DNA of 64,000 nucleotides from Micromonospora sp. R77 (GTDB lineage Bacteria; Actinomycetota; Actinomycetes; Mycobacteriales; Micromonosporaceae): assembly GCF_022747945.1 (NCBI RefSeq), contig NZ_JALDST010000001.1:434001-498000 (forward strand), given 5' to 3'. The notes beneath the pieces are model-generated. The model was not told where the DNA came from. It was given only the letters and a program-made list of their open reading frames with translations, and made no database searches. Below are positions 48,661-62,558 of this stretch, one piece after another. Position numbers and translations under genes: made by a program. How positions within the stretch are numbered: position 1 is the first letter of the stretch; each line of letters starts with the position of its first letter.

Positions 48661-49060
48661 ATCATGTTCGAGAATAGCGGCACCGGCGAGGAAGCCGAAC
48701 TAGGTGGCGCGCCGCGCCGTGTCGTGACTGGACAGCACCGAGGTGGTCGTTGCACCCACGCCGTGGTACGCGGCCATCGACTCCTCGATCGCGGCGCTTG
48801 CCGGTCGGGGTCCCAGACGGTGCCGAGGGAGTCGAAGCTGAAACCCTGGTGTATCTCGGCGAGTCAATCACGTCGTACCCGCCGTCGACGCCGCCGGAGG
48901 GATAGAACGGGCTGAGCCAATCGCGTCCACGCCGAGTTCGGCCAGGTGCGGCAGGCGTAGGTGATGCCCGGAGGTCACCGACTCCGCCACCTCGCCGTCG
49001 CTGAACGAGCGCGGATAGACCCGGTAGACCATCGCGTCACCCACCACCCCGCTGGCGCGG
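48661..49060 (-). pseudogene. Internally deleted GH13 alpha-glucosidase pseudogene
   Basis: Reading on the minus strand, an N-terminal piece starts near ATG 49032 (AMVYRVYPRSFSDG, LRLPHLAELGVDAI). After a 1-nt shift it continues as WLSPFYPSGGVDGGYDV. Then, without the expected middle of the barrel, the sequence jumps to EIHQGFSFDSLGTVWDPDR, AIEESMAAYHGVGA and LSSHDTARRAT, followed by an in-frame stop. These match the start and the later catalytic region of GH13 alpha-glucosidases (family versions: YQVYPRSFAD and WVLSNHDVVRHATR). One large deletion, two frameshifts and one stop show a dead gene. Confidence 0.8.
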
Positions 49061-49256
49061 AGGAACGAAGAAACCGTAATACAGCGTTGCAGGATTGTTT
49101 CCACCAGCCAAGCGCCGGAGGTGTACACACTCGATCGACTGTGGGCTAGCTGGCGGTGTGGCGGGAGGGTCGTCTTCCGGACCACCGGGGACGACTCCAG
49201 CACCCGCCGGTGATGGCTGCCCTCGCGCGACCCGAGCTGGCGCATCAGAGGGTCCG

Positions 49257-49658
49257 CTAGCCGACGGGTCGCGCGGTACTGGCTCGTCGGCTGGCGACAG
49301 CACATTGGGCGCCGGGTTGGCGGGGACCGATGTCGCTCTGCTCGTCGGGAATCGGCTCGACCTTCCGCTTGCCCTCGGTCGGCTGCCGTGGCGGCATGTC
49401 GATGCCGATTGCTCGGGCGTACTCGGCGAGGATGCCGCCGGCTTCGGCGAGCAGCCATGAGCCGTCGCGGAGCTTGACGGTTCCTGGGCGTAGTTGCCCA
49501 GTGCGGTTGGCAAGGGGTTGTTGGCTCCGGTGGTCAGGGCGCGGAACTCGGCTCGGGCGCTCTCGGCGTCCTGGATGACGACCTTGGTCAGGTCCTGCTG
49601 TTAGCCGTTGGAGACGTGCAGGGTCGCGGAGCGCGGCGGCGATGTCGGGCAGGGTCAC
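49257..49658 (-). pseudogene. Degenerate hypothetical gene of the integrative-element type
   Basis: A GTG at 49658 with GGAGG upstream begins VTLPDIAAALRDP. Coding then hops frames: QQDLTKVVIQDAESARAEF and TGANNPLPTALGNYAQ in one frame, GTVKLRDGSWLLAEAGGILA and YARAIGIDMPPRQPTEGK in another. A stop interrupts the first hop (SNG then TAA). I do not recognise the family. The position before a replication-type gene suggests a mobile-element origin. Confidence 0.55.
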
Positions 49659-49988
49659 GGTTGGTACCTCCGAGTGAGGTCGGCTGCGGGATCGGGTCCG
49701 GCGGTGATGCAGCGGGAATTGATGAGCTGAGGTCGGGTCGCACTGGGTGTTCTTCGACGCAGGCGGTCGTAGCGGATCAAGGTGGCGGCGGCTTGTTCGG
49801 TTGGCCTGGTGAGCCGTAGGGCGCCGGATGATCCAGTTGCTGGCGGTGCCGAACAGCACCGAGTAGCCGGCGTGGCAGGATTTGACCCCCGAGCCCAATC
49901 GCCAGATGCTTTAGCGTCGACAATGGGCAGGTGGGCCGCTGGTTCGGCACCGCTGTTGCGGCGCGACGGCCGACGGCGGGCCGCTGGA
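49659..49988. other. 330-bp region with no recognised gene
   Basis: It lies between the degenerate hypothetical ORF and the stop of the HTH replication-type gene. I see no coherent reading frame, hairpin or repeat. Confidence 0.4.
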
Positions 49989-50750
49989 TCACGCCACACC
50001 GCCGAGTGTCTCGGCGCGGCAGGGGCCGCAGTTGCGGGCGGGACTGCCCCGGTGTCGAGCGCATTGGTCGGCGCGACGGCTGTCGGCGGAAGCGCCGGTG
50101 GCGGTTCGTGCGCGCGGACGCGCGGATATTTCTTTGATGGTTAAGGACGGTTCGTCTGAAGCACGCTTCGTGCCGTTCGGTCGCGTGCTTCGTGTCGTCA
50201 GGTAGTGGGCTTCACCCCGTCTGGACGTCGGCTTCACCCCGTCAGGTAGTGGGCTTCGCCCCGTCCGGGGGTGGGCTTCACCCTGTTTGGACGTCGGCAA
50301 CGCCCGGTCGAGGGCGCTGCCTTGTCCCATGGAGAACGGTGCTGTGCCCCGCTTGGTCCCGGTTGTCAGACCGGCTGTCCGGGCCTCGTCGTTCCGGTGT
50401 GGTTGCTGGCACTCGCCCGGCTGAGGTTGCGCGAGAGGTTCCTGGGAGCCGGGTAGCGGCCGGCGGCGGTCCAGCGCCAGGTCCCAGACGACAGGTCGGC
50501 GGTCGGCCGCCAGGAAGGCGGCGCGGCTTTGGTCGCCACGGCGGATCAGACCGAGCTTTTCAAGGGTTTTCAAGTCGCTTTGCACGGATCGGACTGTTTT
50601 GCGGGCGTAGAAGGCGAGGCGTTCTTGGCGAGGGAAAGCGCCTCGGCCGGCATCGTCGGCGTGGTTGGCCAAGCCGATGAGCACGGCGAGGCAGGACGGG
50701 GGAACGTCCGGTGCGTGGGCGAGCGCCCAGGTGACAGCCTCGACGCTCAT
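49989..50750 (-). CDS. Helix-turn-helix replication-type protein of an integrative/plasmid element
   Basis: ATG 50750 (MSVEAVTWALAHAPDVPPS) follows AAGGCGG. 253 residues. The N-terminal winged HTH (CLAVLIGLANHADDAGRGAF, QERLAFYARKTVRSVQSDL, LEKLGLIRRGDQS) is the type found in actinobacterial plasmid and ICE replication-module proteins. The middle contains repeated GEAH and GVKP motifs coded by short DNA repeats. The C-terminus has a Cys/His cluster (CARHRGSPARNCGPC). It is intact, although its neighbours are decayed. The proposed role in replication initiation or regulation is inferred from relatives and from the Replic_Relax gene nearby. Confidence 0.72.
   Translation of the reverse strand: MSVEAVTWALAHAPDVPPSCLAVLIGLANHADDAGRGAFPRQERLAFYARKTVRSVQSDLKTLEKLGLIRRGDQSRAAFLAADRRPVVWDLALDRRRPLPGSQEPLAQPQPGECQQPHRNDEARTAGLTTGTKRGTAPFSMGQGSALDRALPTSKQGEAHPRTGRSPLPDGVKPTSRRGEAHYLTTRSTRPNGTKRASDEPSLTIKEISARPRARTATGASADSRRADQCARHRGSPARNCGPCRAETLGGVA
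50208..50300. repeat. Imperfect tandem repeats inside the HTH gene
   Basis: Four imperfect copies of GGCTTCACCCCGTC spaced about 20-24 bp apart encode repeated GEAH/GVKP motifs on the minus strand. They are coding repeats; similar runs are known in relatives of this protein family. Confidence 0.6.
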
Positions 50751-51059
50751 CACGCCGCCTTCGACATGTCGGTTCGTCGCGTGCTGGTCCCGCAACGCCG
50801 GCCTTTCAGGTCCAGCAGCGGGATACGGCGGTGGGCGTAGGCAACTGAGGCGAGTCCCGTGCCGCTGGCTGTTGTCGGTCGCACGGCTGCAGTGAGGGGT
50901 GACCGCTGTCGCATCGATCTTTCTCCCTTTGTCCGTAAGTAGATGACGAGTGCAGGGCTCGCCCCTGCCGTCCTGAACGGGCGGCGACTGATTGATGTCT
51001 GCCTTCGCCACCAAGGTCAAGTCGTGCTGTGGGACTGCGGCATAGCGACCGCCATCTCC

Positions 51060-51400
51060 GCCCCGAGGTGGGGCCGTCGAGGTGGTGCTTCAGCCGCCCG
51101 GTACAGCGAGGTACCGGAGGGCCGCTGGGCTCACCGCGTGCCCAGCCAAGGACTTTTCGCGGCGCGGTCGTACGGGCCGGCGAAGAGTTCTCGGGTGGCG
51201 GGTGGGCCTCAGCGGTGGCGGCCCAGGAGAAGATGCAGGGCAGCGGCCGCCTGGGCGGGTACGACGCCGCTACCGAGGACGCGCAGCGCTCCGGTTCGTG
51301 GTAGATCCAGCGTGGGGTCGATGACCCAGGCCGGCGGGCAGACCCATAAGCCTTAGGGTTCTCGAGCGTCCGGGCTAGATCATCTGGACTATCGGTGGGG
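51060..51400 (-). pseudogene. Decayed hypothetical gene
   Basis: Minus-strand reading gives RTLENPKAY, then in another frame VCPPAWVIDPTLDLPRTGAL and SGVVPAQAAAALHLLLGRHR, followed by a stop. Further remnants run toward 51060. The composition is coding-like but the frame is broken at least twice. I do not recognise the product. It is part of the same decayed integrative-element region. Confidence 0.5.
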
Positions 51401-51873
51401 TCCGGGTGTGGCTTGGCCCATGACGACGCCCGGTGGTTCGAGCGGTATGGCCGCCCCGCTCCTCCTGGACGCCCTGGCCGCCGATTGAGAACCGCGAGTC
51501 GCCGCTGTCTAAGGCTGTCCTGGCGGGGATATCCCTCGGCTGTCCATACAACCCTCCACTTGGTGGCATCGGACGGCGCAGCAGAGCGCGGTCGCGCAGG
51601 TCGAAGCAGTCGCATGGTCATCTCCTCGACAATGAGCACGGGCGGACGGGATGGGTGCGTTGTACCGGGGTGGGGGCAAGCGCCCGGGTGCGGATGTCGG
51701 TCTGATCAACGGGGTGCCGGAACGGGCAGGTGAGGAGTTGCTGGAGTCGCCCCCGCGTCTGCCGGGTGGCCGGGGTGGTTAGGCCTGCCGGTGCGCGATA
51801 CGGGATCGCCTCGGTGATCGCTCATGTCGATGTTGGCTCCACACCGCGCGGGTGTCGGCGACACTTCCAAACC
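51401..51873. other. Decayed or noncoding stretch left of the inverted-repeat element
   Basis: No frame with conserved motifs or a good start was found. It probably includes the degraded 5' end of the hypothetical gene on the minus strand. Confidence 0.4.
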
Positions 51874-51890
51874 GGCGTTTGTGTGCTCTG
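51874..51890. repeat. Inverted repeat, left arm of the noncoding element
   Basis: GGCGTTTGTGTGCTCTG is the exact reverse complement of 53111-53127. Weaker similarity extends outward (AAAC, GTGTC) and inward (GAAC, CC and the CTCACAG iterons). Confidence 0.85.
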
Positions 51891-51906
51891 GTGAACACCT
51901 GCGCCA

Positions 51907-51933
51907 CTCACAGCGGCTCACAACGGCTCACAG
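51907..51933. repeat. Left iterons (three copies of CTCACAG/A, 10-bp period)
   Basis: CTCACAG 51907-51913, CTCACAA 51917-51923 and CTCACAG 51927-51933 are spaced exactly one helical turn apart. They are in inverted orientation to the right-hand CTGTGAG set. Confidence 0.8.
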
Positions 51934-53054
51934 AACCGCGCGTCCCACCACACGCTGACCCCCGAGCCGGCAGCGCACCGTCCCCACGCCAGTCACCGTG
52001 GCAGCGAACGAGGTTTCGATGACATGCCGGGTCGCGGCCGGTTCCTGGCCACCCCGCACGGGGCCACTGACACGCCGTCGCGGCACCGACATGCCAGATG
52101 GCCACGAGAGCCAGGCAACAGGACACGCACTGATGCCAGCCGATGGCCCCATCGCCACGACATGTCCGCCTGTCGCGAAGAACGCCATGTCCAATAGACG
52201 GTTGACGGACCGGCCAAATGACCCCGGCGGTGTCACAGCGATGCGGTCAACACAGGCCCGGCCGCGCTTGTGGCCGGTCGGATGCCGTCGGACACCTCTG
52301 ACACACGGACGGCCACACTGTCCCAGCCCTGCCCGGCAAGACATCGGACCGGGCACGTGCCCGCGATGTCCGTCGGCGGCCATGGACGGACGACGGCCTC
52401 CGACATGTAACACGGGGGTCTTGTCAGCGAGCGTGTCGTCACGGCCGTGACCACCACCTCCCTGGAGGACATCATGTTCATCGGCGTTCTTCGTTGACAT
52501 CGCCCCGCCCGCACTTGACATCGGGATCGGCGCGCCGCGAACCCGGGTGCGGGTCCGTGCCGGAACCGGTAGCACGCCGGCATGACGCGCCGGGCGAGCG
52601 AGACGGCGGGGTGTTGTCATCCCGACGGAGCCGTGGCTAGGCCGGACAACCGAGAGAATGCCTGCCACCACGTCCCTGATCAGCTGTCCGCCCAGCCCCG
52701 CTGTCACCGTCGGTCGCAGGACTCGGCGTCTGACATTCGGTGTCCGGCGCCGGATGACAGAGGTCATCCGGCGGACGGCCTGTTGGGCGCAGAACGGCTC
52801 GCCAAGGACAGGCGAGGGTCGCTGGACGGGTCGTGCCGGCACTGACCCCTGCCTCCCGCTACGCCGATTGACAGTCCACCGGCCGGTGAACGGTTCTGGT
52901 CGACAGAAGTCGCGGACTCCCGGACGGACTGGCCGACACCTCCAACGGCGCCCCTACTGGTCGCCGGATCCGCCCGCAGCCACTTCGTCCGGCCGCAGTC
53001 CGCTAGCCGTGATCAGCCCCTCCCAAACCATGCCGGATCAGGGTTGTGTGGACA

Positions 53055-53093
53055 CTGTGAGGGACTGTGGGAGCCCTGTGAGAGCTCTGTGAG
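53055..53093. repeat. Right iterons (four copies of CTGTGAG/CTGTGGG, 10-11-bp period)
   Basis: Copies begin at 53055, 53065, 53076 and 53087. The second reads CTGTGGG, the others CTGTGAG. They mirror the left iterons. Confidence 0.82.
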
Positions 53094-53110
53094 AGAGGGA
53101 GGGCGTTCGT

Positions 53111-53127
53111 CAGAGCACACAAACGCC
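53111..53127. repeat. Inverted repeat, right arm of the noncoding element
   Basis: CAGAGCACACAAACGCC, the exact reverse complement of 51874-51890. Confidence 0.85.
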
Positions 53128-53577
53128 GTTTAGAGGGTGCGGGACACGTATCGCGAGGCCAGCGGCTCCCCACCGCCGCCCTTACCAAGCCGCTCCGCAG
53201 GTGCTGCCATCTGCGGGGTATGACCCACCCCGATCCACGTCCGCAGTGCAGCTGTCTCGCCCGGAACGGCGGCCCTCCGAAGCGCAGAAGCCCGGCAACC
53301 CCTCACGCCACAGTGCCCCCCGGCAGGGCAATCGGAGTGCCCGCGGCCAATGCGAGGAGGCCAGCCCCGCATGGGTGGCCCCATCGGCTTCCGGCCTTGC
53401 TGTCCCTGCTGCGGTCCGTGCTGCCTGCCGTTTCGCGGTCCGTCTTCAGGTGGACCGCGACACGGACGGGTCCCCGCGTCCGTCAGTGCAGGCCAACCCA
53501 GGCCTGACCGATCCGACCGCTGCTCAGAGACACCTGCGGTGTCATCTCCCCCAAACGCACATCCGAAAGGGAACCTC
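53128..53577. other. 450-bp leader upstream of the Replic_Relax gene
   Basis: No conserved ORF was recognised. It presumably contains the promoter for the downstream gene. An open frame in phase with that gene runs back to about 53350 but its composition is Cys/Pro-rich and not protein-like. Confidence 0.4.
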
Positions 53578-54447
53578 GTGCCCGACCAGGTCCTGCGCGT
53601 GCAGTCCGTCCTGACCGCCCGCGACCACCTCCTGCTTCAATGGCTCACCGACCACGGCGTGTTCACCACACCGCAGCTCGCCCACGCCCTGTTCCCCTCC
53701 CTGGACTACGCCCAACACCGCCTCACACGCCTCACCGCCCTGCACGTCGTGGACCGGTTCCGGCCCTTTCGTCCCGACGGCGGCTCGTTCCCGTTCCATT
53801 ACGTCATCGATCAACTCGGCGCGGAGATCGTCGCCGCCCAACGCGACCAACCACCACCCCGCCCCGGCCACGCCAAGACCAACCGGCGGCGGTGGACCGC
53901 CGCCCGCACCCTCGGCCACCGCCTCGGCGTCAACAGCTTCTTCACCGACCTCGCTGGCCACGCCCGCACCCACCCCGACCACACCCTCACCCGCTGGTGG
54001 CCCGAATCCCGCTGCGCCCAAACCGGCGCGTTCGCCCGCCCCGGCGACCCCGTCGCCCTACACGCCTTGGCCGCCCCGATCCGCCCCGACGGACACGGCA
54101 TCTGGACTACCCCCCGCGCTCAGGTGCCGTTCTTCCTCGAACACGACACAGGCACCGAACCCCTCGCCGAACTCATGCGCAAACTCATCGGCTATGCCCG
54201 CCTCGTCGACGCCGGCGGACCCCGCTGGCCTGTGCTGTTCTGGCTCCACTCCGCCACTCGCGCCCACCACCTCCACCAACACCTCACCACCATTCGAGTG
54301 CCCGTACCCGTCGCCACCGCCAGCCGCGACCACGCCACCCACGGACCAGCAGGACCGGTCTGGCACCTCCACGGCCACCCCGGGCCACTCACCCTCGCCG
54401 ACCTCGCCACCACCATCCCGGACAACAGCCACGGCAGCCTCGACTAA
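53578..54447 (+). CDS. Replication-relaxation (Replic_Relax) family protein
   Basis: GTG 53578 (VPDQVLRVQSVLTARDHLLL) follows AAAGGGAA. 289 residues. An N-terminal winged HTH (WLTDHGVFTTPQLAHALFPS, AQHRLTRLTALHVVDRF) is followed by a nuclease-like alpha/beta domain with PDG-type strands (APIRPDGHG, VPFFLEHDTGTEPLAELMRK, PVLFWLHSATRAHHLH). This layout is that of the Replic_Relax family found on actinobacterial plasmids and integrative elements, associated with replication or transfer. It points away from the inverted-repeat element, 450 bp downstream of its right arm. Confidence 0.85.
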   Translation: MPDQVLRVQSVLTARDHLLLQWLTDHGVFTTPQLAHALFPSLDYAQHRLTRLTALHVVDRFRPFRPDGGSFPFHYVIDQLGAEIVAAQRDQPPPRPGHAKTNRRRWTAARTLGHRLGVNSFFTDLAGHARTHPDHTLTRWWPESRCAQTGAFARPGDPVALHALAAPIRPDGHGIWTTPRAQVPFFLEHDTGTEPLAELMRKLIGYARLVDAGGPRWPVLFWLHSATRAHHLHQHLTTIRVPVPVATASRDHATHGPAGPVWHLHGHPGPLTLADLATTIPDNSHGSLD

Positions 54448-54605
54448 TTGACATCGACCTCCGCCGACCCGCCGCAGGACCCTCGCACCCACCGAGCGCC
54501 AGCTGTCGAATCCTCCCCGCAGCCCGACAGCATCCACACCTCTGAATGCCGAAATCCTCGCCGGACATCGGAGGCCTGCTCCCCGACTTGACCTTGGGTA
54601 TGAAA

Positions 54606-54966
54606 TGAGCGTGGATCCCACAACGGGGTGCGGGGTAAGACGGTGCTGACCGACGTCGGGCCGGTGCAGATTGAGGTGACCCGGGCTCGGGACGGCACGT
54701 TCGAGCCGCAGATCGAGCGCCAGCGCCAGCGCCGGTTACCCGGGGTCGAGGACATGGTGACCTCGCTGTCGGCCATGGGATTGACGACCGGCGAGATCCA
54801 GGCCCACCTGGCCGAGGTGTACGGCGCGGACGTGGCCAGAGAGACGATCTCCACGATCACCGACAAAGTCGTCGACGCGAGATCTCCCACGCCGATCAGC
54901 AGTGGGCGTCGACTCATCACCACGGCCCGGCCCTGCTGCATAGGGTCGACCCACGTCGCGGGTTGA
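54606..54966 (+). pseudogene. IS256-family transposase fragment (central part)
   Basis: The frame GSHNGVRGKTVLTDVGPVQI continues with RDGTFEPQIERQRQRRLPGV and SLSAMGLTTGEIQAHLAEVY, diagnostic of IS256 transposases before the DDE core. The sequence turns non-homologous after VARETISTITDKVVDA. A stop precedes it in frame, so both N- and C-terminal parts are gone. Confidence 0.82.
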
Positions 54967-55130
54967 CCGAGCACGACTTCGATGCCATCAAGAGCTGGCT
55001 CAGGCGGGCGCGGTAGTGCGATCTGGACGTCGTCGCAGTCGCCGTGCTTGACGGGCTGTCTGACCACTCGGGACCGACGTTTGCGAACGGTGCGCGCGGA
55101 ACGGGGGCACCGGTAGCCTGCTTAGCTGCT

Positions 55131-55700
55131 CTACGGGGACGGAATGTTCGGTAGCTGGTCGTCGTCGCGTCCGGTCTGGGGTAGCCCGGCGGCAGCTGCG
55201 ATGGTCTTGACGGCCTCGTTCAGTCCGGTGGTCTCGGGTAGGACGAGTTCGTCGGGCCAGCCCAGGACGTCATGGGCGGCGTACCAGCCGCTCATGTGCT
55301 TCGCGGTGAACTCGCTGGCCTGTGGGCGGGTGAGGTGCCGGCGCAGGGTCTCGGCAAGGGAGACGTCGAGGTAGCAGAACAGTGACCGGCCGCGGTGGTC
55401 GTCCCGCAGGGCGGTCAGCATGCTGCGGTAGCGGCTGCTGTGCATAATGCCTTCCAAGACCACGTGGTAGCCGTGGTCGAGGGCGAACCGAGCGGTCTGC
55501 GCGATCAGGGCGGGTGCGGCGCCGCCGGGCAGGTCCCGTTCGCGCAGCAGGATGCGGCGCAGGTAGTCCTGCTCGACGAGGGCGCAGCCCCGGCCGTGCC
55601 GGCGCCGTAGCTTCCGGGCGATGCTGCTCTTGCCGGAGCCGGAGTTGCCCCGGATGCAGACGAGGATCGTGTCCGGGCTGCCCGTGGGTTCAGCGCGCAC
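55131..55700 (-). CDS. P-loop kinase-like AAA protein
   Basis: 189 residues. GTG 55700 follows AGGAGG. Walker A GNSGSGKSS lies at residues 18-26, followed by ALVEQDYLRRILL, HVVLEGIMHSSRYRSML and an Arg-rich lid (RRHLTRPQASEFT). This is the layout of small-molecule kinases such as chloramphenicol phosphotransferase or zeta-like kinases. The substrate is unknown. It lies 14 nt after the pentapeptide-repeat gene and belongs to the operon headed by the RiPP maturase remnant and precursor. Confidence 0.78.
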   Translation of the reverse strand: MRAEPTGSPDTILVCIRGNSGSGKSSIARKLRRRHGRGCALVEQDYLRRILLRERDLPGGAAPALIAQTARFALDHGYHVVLEGIMHSSRYRSMLTALRDDHRGRSLFCYLDVSLAETLRRHLTRPQASEFTAKHMSGWYAAHDVLGWPDELVLPETTGLNEAVKTIAAAAGLPQTGRDDDQLPNIPSP

Positions 55701-55714
55701 GATGCCTCCTCGCT

Positions 55715-56377
55715 TCAGGTGTTGCGCACGGTGAGGTTGAGGGCGGCGACGGTCAGCTGGGTGAGGTCAGGAAGTTGGTCCTCACCGAGGGTGACGCCGC
55801 GTAGGTTGTCCAGCGGCGTCTTGAGCCCGTGGAGGCGGCTGCCCCGCAGGTCGGCCCCGTCGAGGTGGCAGGAGTCCAGTTCCAGGCCGGCGAGGTCACA
55901 TGACCGCAGTGCGACGCGCGGTAGCCGGCAGGAAGACCACGCGCCGTTGGTGAGAGTGCAGTCGGTGAATGCGACCGAGCCGGCGGCGGCGACGCGGTGG
56001 AAGGTGGCGTAGTCGAATCGGCAGCCGTCGAACAGAACGTCCTTGAGGCGGACGTCGGTGAGTCTGGTGCCGGTGAACCGGGAGCCGGTGATCGCGCACC
56101 GTTCGATGGTGATGCCGGTCAGGGTCGCTCCGGAGAAGTCGGTGCGGGTGATCTCGCAGCCGAAGAGGCTGCCGGCTTCCCACGTGCTCTCGCTCAGGTC
56201 CACACCGGTGATCAGGCTGCTGCGGATGCTGACGTCTTCAAGGTGCACGCCGCGCCACGCTGCGCCCTCAACCAGGACCTCGGTGAGGCTGTCGGCCAAG
56301 TCCGTCGTGGTGTCGAGGTCTTCCGGCTCGAGGTCCGGCAACAGGACCTTCACATCGCCGATCGTGCTGGTGCGCAT
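55715..56377 (-). CDS. Pentapeptide-repeat protein
   Basis: 220 residues. ATG 56377 follows GAGGA. Residues about 45-205 are continuous five-residue repeats with central Leu/Phe and flanking small or polar residues (for example ITRTDFSGATLTGI, ADLRGSRLHGL), which should fold as a quadrilateral beta-helix. Such proteins can mimic DNA and protect gyrase, or act as scaffolds. The operon position with a RiPP precursor suggests a self-protection or accessory role (inference). Confidence 0.87.
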   Translation of the reverse strand: MRTSTIGDVKVLLPDLEPEDLDTTTDLADSLTEVLVEGAAWRGVHLEDVSIRSSLITGVDLSESTWEAGSLFGCEITRTDFSGATLTGITIERCAITGSRFTGTRLTDVRLKDVLFDGCRFDYATFHRVAAAGSVAFTDCTLTNGAWSSCRLPRVALRSCDLAGLELDSCHLDGADLRGSRLHGLKTPLDNLRGVTLGEDQLPDLTQLTVAALNLTVRNT

Positions 56378-60206: not shown

Positions 60207-60235
60207 GGTGGCCGGGCCGAAGAGGCCCGGCCACC
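60207..60235. terminator. 12-bp stem-loop after the secreted-protein gene
   Basis: GGTGGCCGGGCC, loop GAAGA, exact complement; it starts 31 nt past the stop at 60176. Confidence 0.8.
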
Positions 60236-60239
60236 ACGC

Positions 60240-61320
60240 GCCCCCGGCCAGATTCGGGCCAGGATGGTCTTCGTCGTGTCGATCTCGCCCTATTGACCAG
60301 GTCCTTGCGCTGCTAGGCGAGCATGATCCGACCGGCGGGAGGCTGCCGGTAGCGATCGAGACGAGCCAGGGACTGCTGTTAGCTGGTCTCCGAGCCGCGG
60401 GTCGACAGGCGTTCGCGATCAATCCTCTTGCCGTGTCGCGTTGTTGGGACCGGTATCGGGCCTCATGCGGCAAGTCGGAGGCGTTCGACGCGATGGTGCT
60501 GGCGAACATCCTGCGCACCGACGCGACCGCGCATCGGCCACTGCCCGCCGACAGTGAGTTGCTGCAGTCGCTGCGGGTCGTGACCCGGGCGCAGCAGGAT
60601 GCTGCATGGGACCAGATCACGCTCACCAACCGGATCCGTACGCTGCTGCGGATGTTCTCTACCGCCGCCCTGGCGGCGTTCGAACGCGGCGGACGGCACC
60701 GGCTCGACTCGCCGGCCGCCCGGATGATTCTTGCCGCGGCGCCGACGCCTGCGGCCGCAGCTGCGCTGGCTCCCCACGAGCTCGCGGCGTTGCTGCGCTG
60801 CGCTGGCCGTCAACGCGGCATCGCCGCCGAGGCGGACAAGCTGCACGGCATCCTCCGCGGCGAGCAGATGCGCCAACCAGCAGCCGTCGAGCAGGCCATG
60901 GGCCTGCACCTTCAAGGACTGGTGCGGCAACTCGACGCGATCTGCCAGACGCTGCAGCAGCTGGAGCAGCGTGTCGACGAGGTGTTCAGGGCTCACCCCG
61001 ACGCGAAGATCGTCACCAGCGTCCCCGGTCTCGGCGTGCAGCTCGGCGCCCGGCTGCTGGCCGAAATCGGCGACGACCGCAGTCGCTTCGCCGACGCCCG
61101 CGCGTTACGTGCTTTCGCCGGTGCCGCGCCGGTGACCCGTTCCTCGGGCAAGAGCAGTTTCGTGCACGCCCGCCCCGCCAAGACCGACCCGATGAACTGG
61201 AGTCAGGCCCAGCTTGACGGCCGCCTACCGATCACCCTGCGGACAGCCGAACAGGTCAAGAAGATCCTCCGGTTCAGAGCACCGTCAGATCCGATCGCCA
61301 GCCGCTACGCCCAGTACATG
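60240..61320 (+). pseudogene. IS110-family transposase, truncated at both ends
   Basis: An open frame carries the middle and C-terminal transposase blocks: GRLPVAIETSQGLLLAGLRA, DRYRASCGKSEAFDAMVLAN, RIRTLLRMF and the transposase_20-type IVTSVPGLGVQLGARLLAEI with FAGAAPVTRSSGKS. The N-terminal DEDD start (usually W-x-D-x-H) is missing. After the Ser-containing block (SSGKSSFVHARPA) the expected ending is replaced by unrelated sequence that runs into the IS3 left end. Confidence 0.78.
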
Positions 61321-61380
61321 GGGTCTGCTGCACCGATAGGTGACATCTGAGATGGCTTGCCCTGCGGGCGGGCTGGAAAA

Positions 61381-61698
61381 ATGTCGCTGTGCCCAAGCCC
61401 TACCCCCCGAGAGTTTCGTGATGACGTCGTGCGTGTCGCTCGTGACCGCGAGGCGGGAGTGACCGTCGAGCAGGTCGCGAAGGACTTCGGGGTGCACCCG
61501 ATGACGTTGTTCAAGTGGCTGCGCCAGTCCGACGTTGACGCCGGGACCAGGTCCGGGACGGCTAGCAGTGAATCCGCCGAGCTGCGCGAAGCGCGCAAGC
61601 GGATCCGGTTGTTGGAACAGGAGAATGAGGTCCTGCGCCGGGCCACCACCTACCTGTCACAGGCGAACCTGCCGGGAAAAGGCTCTACCCGCTCGTGA
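61381..61698 (+). CDS. IS3-family transposase OrfA
   Basis: 105 residues from ATG 61381. HTH (VEQVAKDFGVHPMTLFKWLR) then a leucine-zipper-like coiled coil (LREARKRIRLLEQENEVLRR). Relatives begin PKPYPREFR. Here that start is reachable from GTG 61389 only if one C is removed from the run of Cs at 61402-61408. So either the ATG start in the present frame is used or a C insertion has damaged the native start. Confidence 0.82.
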   Translation: MSLCPSPTPREFRDDVVRVARDREAGVTVEQVAKDFGVHPMTLFKWLRQSDVDAGTRSGTASSESAELREARKRIRLLEQENEVLRRATTYLSQANLPGKGSTRS

Positions 61699-62558
61699 GC
61701 GAGTTGGCCGCCGACGGGATCCCCGTCGCGGTGACGTGCCGGGTACTGAACATCGCTCTCCAGCCCTACTACCGGTGGCTGGCCCGACCAGTCACCAGCG
61801 CCGACCTGGTGGCGGCGTATCGGGCCAACGCGTTGTTCGACGCCCACCGTGATGATCCGGAGTTCGGTTACCGGTTCCTGGTCGACGAGGCCCGCGACGC
61901 CGGGCAGCCGATGGCCGACCGCACGGCGTGGCGGATCTGCTCGGGTAACGGCTGGTGGAGCGCCTTAGGTAAGAGGAAGCGTCGGGGCAAGGGCGGCAAG
62001 GTAGGCCCACCGGTGCACGACGATCTGGTCCAGCGGGACTTCACCGCCGACGGCCCGAACCGGCTGTGGTTGGCCGACATCACCGAGCACCACACCGGCG
62101 AGGGCAAGCTTTACCTCTGCGCGATCAAGGACATCTGGTCCCACCGGATCGTCGGCTACTCCATCGACTCGCGGATGAAGTCCCGCCTCGCCGTCACCGC
62201 ACTCGACAACGCCGCCGCCAGACGTGGTGACCTGGCCGGTTGCGTGTTGCACACCGACCGCGGGTCGCAATTCCGGTCCAGGAAGATGCGGCGTGCTCTG
62301 GACCGTCACCGGATGGTCGGCTCCATGGGTCGCGTCGGCGCCGCCGGCGACAACGCCGCCATGGAGTCCTTCTTTGCCCTCCTGCAGAACAACGTCCTCA
62401 ACCGGCGAACGTGGGCCACCCGCCAGCAACTACGGATCGCGATCGTGACCTGGATCGAACGGACCTACCACCGTCGCCGACGCCAGCGGTCGCTGTCCCG
62501 GTTGACCCCCGTTGAATTCGAGACCATCATGCACCCACCGGCCAGTCAGGCCGCGTGA
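61695..62558 (+). CDS. IS3-family transposase OrfB (rve integrase core)
   Basis: 287 residues. GTG 61695 overlaps the OrfA stop by 4 nt. The DDE core has NRLWLADITEHHTGEGKLYL (first Asp), VLHTDRGSQFRSRKMRR (second Asp) and NAAMESFFALLQNNVL (Glu). The C-terminus ends with the family LTPVEFE. The frame is intact. Confidence 0.93.
   Translation: MSELAADGIPVAVTCRVLNIALQPYYRWLARPVTSADLVAAYRANALFDAHRDDPEFGYRFLVDEARDAGQPMADRTAWRICSGNGWWSALGKRKRRGKGGKVGPPVHDDLVQRDFTADGPNRLWLADITEHHTGEGKLYLCAIKDIWSHRIVGYSIDSRMKSRLAVTALDNAAARRGDLAGCVLHTDRGSQFRSRKMRRALDRHRMVGSMGRVGAAGDNAAMESFFALLQNNVLNRRTWATRQQLRIAIVTWIERTYHRRRRQRSLSRLTPVEFETIMHPPASQAA

Follow-up and report, generated by a model that had tools for sequence, protein, structure and literature searches.

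Mirrored iteron arms around a palindrome array: a candidate divergent promoter hub in mobile elements of Micromonosporaceae

The window analysed here is a stretch of 64,000 nucleotides from Micromonospora sp. R77 (NZ_JALDST010000001.1, positions 434,001 to 498,000), and our subject is a segment of 1.25 kb within it, enclosed by two arms in mirror orientation and lying between genes for an HTH_36 protein and a Replic_Relax protein (Table 1). An original prediction, made from the DNA letters and their reading frames, had described exact 17-bp inverted repeats closing this segment. The repeats are present, with a true length of 18 bp (51873-51890 versus 53111-53128), and are embedded in a 30-bp repeat that matches at 87%. 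None of 30 first-order Markov shuffles of the window produced an exact inverted repeat of at least 17 bp within 1.5 kb, compared with a count of two in the real window, both being 17-mers of the one 18-bp repeat. Inside the arms the 7-bp iterons face each other as had been claimed, three on the left (CTCACAG at 51907, CTCACAA at 51917 and CTCACAG at 51927; spacings 10 and 10 bp) and four on the right (CTGTGAG at 53055, CTGTGGG at 53065 and CTGTGAG at 53076 and 53087; spacings 10, 11 and 11 bp). Five of the seven are exact and two carry one change.

Table 1. Features of the segment and its immediate surroundings, in window coordinates.
Feature	Coordinates	Strand	Remarks
HTH_36 protein	49992..50750	-	70% identical homologue in the ICE (integrative and conjugative element) L009
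Left outward leader, R1orf type	51823..51868	-	Ends in start codon ATGAGCGA; distance to GGTTT exactly 48 bp
Left arm box	51869..51899	+	31 bp; inward strand AAACCGGCGTTTGTGTGCTCTGGTGAACACC; outward reading starts GGTGTTCACC and stops at GGTTT
Left iterons (three), CTCACA(G/A)	51907..51933	+	10-bp spacing; first iteron 7 bp inside the box
Operator-like array, non-coding	51941..53050	.	12 TGACA/TGTCA and 11 GGACA/TGTCC sites
Right iterons (four), CTGTG(A/G)G	53055..53093	-	10-11-bp spacing
Right arm box	53102..53132	-	31 bp; outward side, toward the relaxase gene, reads CGTTTA where the family has GGTTT
Replic_Relax protein, MobC-type relaxase family	53578..54447	+	PF13814, E 2.4e-52 on the longer reading frame from 53350

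Missed by the original prediction was an array of short sites between the iterons. TGACA/TGTCA occurs 12 times inside the segment compared with 2.5 times in dinucleotide shuffles (maximum 7 among 200), and the GGACA/TGTCC pentamers occur 11 times against 4.2 expected. The GC content of the segment, 67-69%, is the same as that of its flanks, so that it is not AT-rich. For the longest open reading frame (ORF) of the interior, 304 amino acids, Pfam gave nothing at E 1, and among the related loci in the database tblastn at E 1e-3 matched it nowhere but in the window itself. This agrees with the earlier view that no credible ORF lies inside, and on these grounds we rejected a decayed gene as the origin of the segment. 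A home-made GC-frame gene finder called no gene in the interior either, a weak negative because the same finder also misses the HTH_36 gene. Rfam gave no match at E 0.5 in window positions 49000-56000.

The arms recur beyond the window. Searching the same genome with the window segment located arms again at 3.460 and 6.055-6.057 Mb, and a sequence model built from six arms (R1) revealed one further, single arm at 3.927 Mb, next to a different Replic_Relax gene. Five Replic_Relax genes are present in this genome; the fifth locus (L033) gave a weak arm-like match alone (E 0.57). At E 0.001 the R1 model found arms in 43 of 151 genomes including the window's own (42 Micromonospora and one of another family). 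A 40-arm model (R2) found them in 29 of 397 genomes of the order (28 of the same genus, one of another) and, across the phylum, in one of 396 genomes, the window's own; searches over more than 40 genomes used stricter filters, at which weak matches are lost. We selected 40 loci of relatives from the R1 match list and rescanned 45 sources, excluding arm matches below 25 bits (12 in this first set, five in the second set below). There were 91 arms of at least 25 bits in 44 of the 45 sources, and 86 of them form 43 inward-facing pairs, a pair being defined by rule as a plus arm followed by a minus arm. By locus the order was +- in 36, +-+- in three and +-- in one, with single arms in four and the opposite order in none; the unpaired arms are those of L032, L098, L101 and L102 and the third arm of L095. 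In a second set of 47 loci, found through the interior protein described below and not through arms, both arms were present in 35, one in eight and none in four, giving 78 arms, all inward-facing; several of these genomes also belong to the first set. Arm hosts in the second set are Micromonospora, Salinispora, Plantactinospora, Actinoplanes, Amorphoplanes and Paractinoplanes, and its sole Virgisporangium locus has no arms.

Read outward, an arm consists of a 31-bp box made up of GTTCGCCA, then a motif like GC(T/A)(C/G)ACA, then GGTTT. A scan of 1.01 Mb of related loci with the box yielded no other site of at least 12 bits, compared with at least 30 bits for the real arms. The first iteron is offset from the box by 7 bp in 64 of 91 arms, and successive iterons are spaced by 10 or 11 bp in 78 of 116 cases and by 20-22 bp in a further 23. 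Among 89 distinct arms, counted with kinship uncorrected, 65 combine a TGTG box with CTCACAG-type iterons and 15 a TGTC box with CTGACAG-type iterons, five being discordant and four ties. Since box and iterons vary together, one protein probably reads both. Blocks that contain the boxes are 84-100% identical in all of five close relatives, compared with mostly 20-70% in the non-coding interior. We rejected the box as a hairpin or dyad, its columns being paired at 0.62 compared with 0.61 when shuffled.

Between the arms, interiors measure 0.36 to 6.9 kb, and TGWCA palindromes (W, A or T) are denser there than in the flanks in 43 of 43 pairs. Six of 16 such sites are fully conserved in five close relatives, compared with 15% of all 5-mers, a weak signal, and by eye the array has no clear helical period. 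A gene of one family is found in 34 of the 43 interiors (some copies are broken). Its product, INT, has a predicted sigma-factor-like fold, with folds of sigma regions 2 and 4 both found by prediction in the related loci; annotation of the longer interiors was restricted to INT. The window interior is without this gene. INT was also considered as the protein that binds the iterons, but only one column of its sequence separates the classes, too little to favour it. A GC-rich hairpin after the sigma-like gene (L010:8321-8345), kept in all five close relatives, is perhaps the terminator of that gene.

We compared the neighbouring genes by tblastn with the proteins of L009, L010 and the window. 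Where TrbL and the interior gene occur together (26 loci), TrbL lies in front of one arm, followed by PrgI, VirB4 and the coupling protein where the stretch reaches that far, and in L010 a pilin gene precedes the other transfer genes. The other arm of these ICE loci faces an ORF that we call R1orf and an N4/N6 DNA methylase. R1orf has no family match; it looks methyltransferase-like by eye, and its identification as a known methyltransferase was rejected on weak matches alone (N6_N4_Mtase at E 0.18 in two of 15, RsrI methylase at E 0.18). The distance between the R1orf start and the GGTTT of the arm is 48-50 bp in all 28 cases. The smaller elements have Replic_Relax in front of one arm, and in L070, L081 and L100 an xis-like protein of HTH_17 type is encoded in front of the other (two of these three matches are below the Pfam cut-off), with a tyrosine integrase after the xis-like gene in L070. 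Two different Replic_Relax-like genes stand in a row beside one arm in L067, L079, L083, L086, L094, L095 and L099. Tandem segments occur at L070:9076-10817, L081:8247-10221 and L100:438-2550, each combining a short one of about 365 bp and CTGACAG class with a longer one of CTCACAG class; in L100 the two are separated by part of a Replic_Relax gene.

The window follows the layout of the smaller elements, its right arm facing the Replic_Relax gene, which had been correctly named before and for which the GTG start at 53578 is our choice. The available part of one source equates the Replic_Relax domain with MobC (PMC5357655), and another uses Replic_Relax as a relaxase model yet lists it in an element labelled MOBT (PMC11104534). 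The left leader, judged by its sequence, is a remnant of the first gene of that side. Directly after the Replic_Relax gene there is a Mutator-type transposase fragment (Pfam; 54628-54966), and farther along lie ORFs judged by eye to be IS110-like and IS3-like (60208-62558). The expectation that arms elsewhere would lie between HTH and Replic_Relax gene pairs holds for Replic_Relax, beside which they are conserved, but not for the HTH_36 partner. That gene is no conserved neighbour of the arms, with tblastn matches in only four of 44 sequences: the window, L009 (70% identity), L032 (28%) and L098 (a 21-residue piece).

These neighbours bear on the leading suggestion of the original prediction, a plasmid-type replication origin or partition site. 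Iterons, inverted repeats and a gene for an HTH protein on one side would all suit such a site; against it, the HTH gene is not conserved beside the arms, the segment lacks an AT-rich stretch, no partition family was found among the eight window ORFs to which that scan was limited, and the R1orf-side arms keep a fixed distance from a start codon. An iteron plasmid origin, which calls for a conserved adjacent rep gene and an AT-rich region, was rejected, and we regard replication or partition as very improbable. From the wider wording, a replication, partition or transfer locus of an actinobacterial integrative element, we retain the cis-acting locus of an integrative element, and transfer in part, because the segment lies between transfer-related operons.

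The inverted arms and the widely varying interiors could also be those of a transposon, a unit resembling a miniature inverted-repeat transposable element (MITE), or an invertible phase switch. In L076 (8483-10474) and L077 (8463-11433) the flanks are collinear but the gene between the arms is inverted, the pattern expected if the arms had recombined, and in L098 an inversion of this gene is inferred from the R1orf side. Inversion is, however, confined to two mutually similar loci among the 26 ICE loci, in all of which TrbL and R1orf border the unit, and nothing is encoded by the window copy. Moreover, in each of eight loci set against L010 the flanks are wholly or partly homologous, which means that the unit has not hopped in these loci. 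Neither of the alternatives that had been named as refuting, a decayed coding region or a simple MITE, finds support, and a transposon or switch is extremely unlikely.

We propose instead that the segment is a divergent promoter hub that controls ICEs of the Micromonosporaceae and is also carried by mobilizable elements, and put the probability of this reading at roughly 0.6. We favour it because the boxes are mirrored and directional, precede divergent operons and, on one side, keep a constant distance to the start codon; phased sites lie upstream of them, and a sigma-like gene is enclosed by the arms. Each arm would be an outward-facing promoter represented by the 31-bp box, and the iterons would be helically phased upstream sites for an activator or repressor. 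One arm would drive the transfer side, that is the type IV secretion system (T4SS) operon in ICEs and the relaxase in mobilizable elements, and the other would drive R1orf and the DNA methylase genes, or the xis-like gene and integrase. The polymerase subunit that reads both arms would, in ICEs, probably come from the enclosed sigma-factor-like gene, and the TGWCA array may be the binding field of a regulator that silences the hub or coordinates its two arms.

The main rival is an origin of transfer (oriT), at which the MobC-type relaxase (Replic_Relax) would bind the iterons through a winged helix and nick near the edge of an arm. The segment sits between the transfer-side and the opposite operons, adjoins the relaxase in mobilizable elements and is the only cis-element found common to ICEs and window-type elements; the Replic_Relax protein of L070 also weakly matches helix-turn-helix families. 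In the available part of a report on plasmid pAD1 (PMC12857230), the MOBC relaxase TraX, a protein with a winged helix, binds to five direct repeats that lie 70-120 bp from the nick, and the iterons could therefore be a relaxase binding site. On the other hand, two mirror copies per element would be unusual for an oriT, and no hairpin is kept in the box. The relaxase helix-turn-helix is near-identical between L074 and L076, and likewise between L096 and L092, despite their differing box and iteron classes; that it does not track iteron class in these two pairs speaks against the relaxase as the iteron binder. In L090, the third CTGACAG-type relaxase, this region differs and has no close partner for comparison.

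A separate structured block in the ICE transfer-side leader competes for the role of oriT. Conserved over about 95 nt (L010:7828-7922, minus strand), this block separates the transfer-side arm from the first transfer genes in all 26 TrbL-side leaders and also occurs in L066 and L080, making 28 loci in all; it was not seen in the two leaders of the window. Three folded copies form a three-way junction with modest z-scores (-1.0 to -2.3). In 25 of the 28 copies, which are related sequences, the closing stem is paired in 94% of cells with a covariation of 0.228 compared with 0.148 when shuffled. Rfam gave no match at E 0.5 in L009, L010 or L076, and we consider the block a candidate oriT or leader RNA. 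A direct repeat, GTGTCAGCGCA, is found in L010 at about 10085, just outside the R1orf-side arm, and at about 7885, in the transfer-side leader block. Taken together, we judge it unlikely that the hub itself is an oriT, and note that the functions of promoter hub and oriT may be combined.

For the window copy, no tblastn match to the T4SS proteins VirB4, TrbL and PrgI or to the coupling protein was obtained anywhere in the window, compared with VirB4, TrbL and PrgI in L009 and L010 of the same genome and a coupling protein in L010. A search aimed at tyrosine integrases alone (PF00589) likewise found none in the window, the nearest lying about 64 kb to the right of it; the relatives L070 and L066 have an integrase of their own. 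The window copy is therefore a mobilizable element or, more likely, the remnant of one, and on the Replic_Relax side it looks eroded. Under the promoter reading it may respond in trans to another element of the same genome, the ICE at 6.055 Mb (G000:C1), whose boxes share the TTTGTGTGCTCTG core with those of the window copy.

More tentatively, with somewhat less than even odds, these elements may represent an undescribed mobile-element switch, in which mirrored iteron promoters enclose a palindrome array and their own sigma factor while the sigma-less copies in mobilizable elements respond to the signal of a resident ICE. ICE control regions as such are already known; it is this architecture that is new. 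As the original prediction had found no described counterpart, so did we find no description of the locus in the titles and abstracts of the open-access literature, subscription journals being largely outside the search. The arm model is a signature by which this family of mobile elements can be searched for in Micromonospora, Salinispora, Actinoplanes and their relatives. The findings further point to a candidate transfer switch, where an element-encoded sigma factor would read two mirrored promoters and parasites would tap the same signal. The two arm classes, CTCACAG and CTGACAG, would then allow predictions of which mobilizable element answers which ICE.

Several known systems share part of this arrangement. 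Sigma-factor-like regulators occur on conjugative elements, for example Orf7 of Tn916, and the likeness lies in an element-encoded sigma-like protein; we know of no mirrored arms or operator array in elements of that type. To our knowledge the oriT of pAD1 comprises one site and not two mirrored ones. In the available account that oriT resembles our segment through a MOBC-kind relaxase with a winged helix and direct repeats as its binding site; it differs in that relaxase and iteron class do not co-vary here in two pairs. ICEs of the actinobacterial T4SS type, as covered in the accessible part of a survey (PMC3218068), share a VirB4-type ATPase, a coupling protein and chromosomal integration, but the relaxase search there was confined to MOBF, whereas the elements described here carry Replic_Relax proteins and the hub. 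In the available part of a study of IncA/C plasmids (PMC4207636), AcaCD brings about excision and mobilization of the islands SGI1 and MGIVmi1. There too one activator system acts on divergent transfer promoters, with sites before xis and the mobilization genes of unrelated islands; in contrast to the elements here, that system belongs to Gammaproteobacteria, relies on an activator complex and not a sigma factor, and, as far as that part describes it, has no mirrored arms around a palindrome array and resident regulator gene. The response in trans that we propose for the window copy would nevertheless resemble the mobilization of SGI1 and MGIVmi1 through AcaCD.
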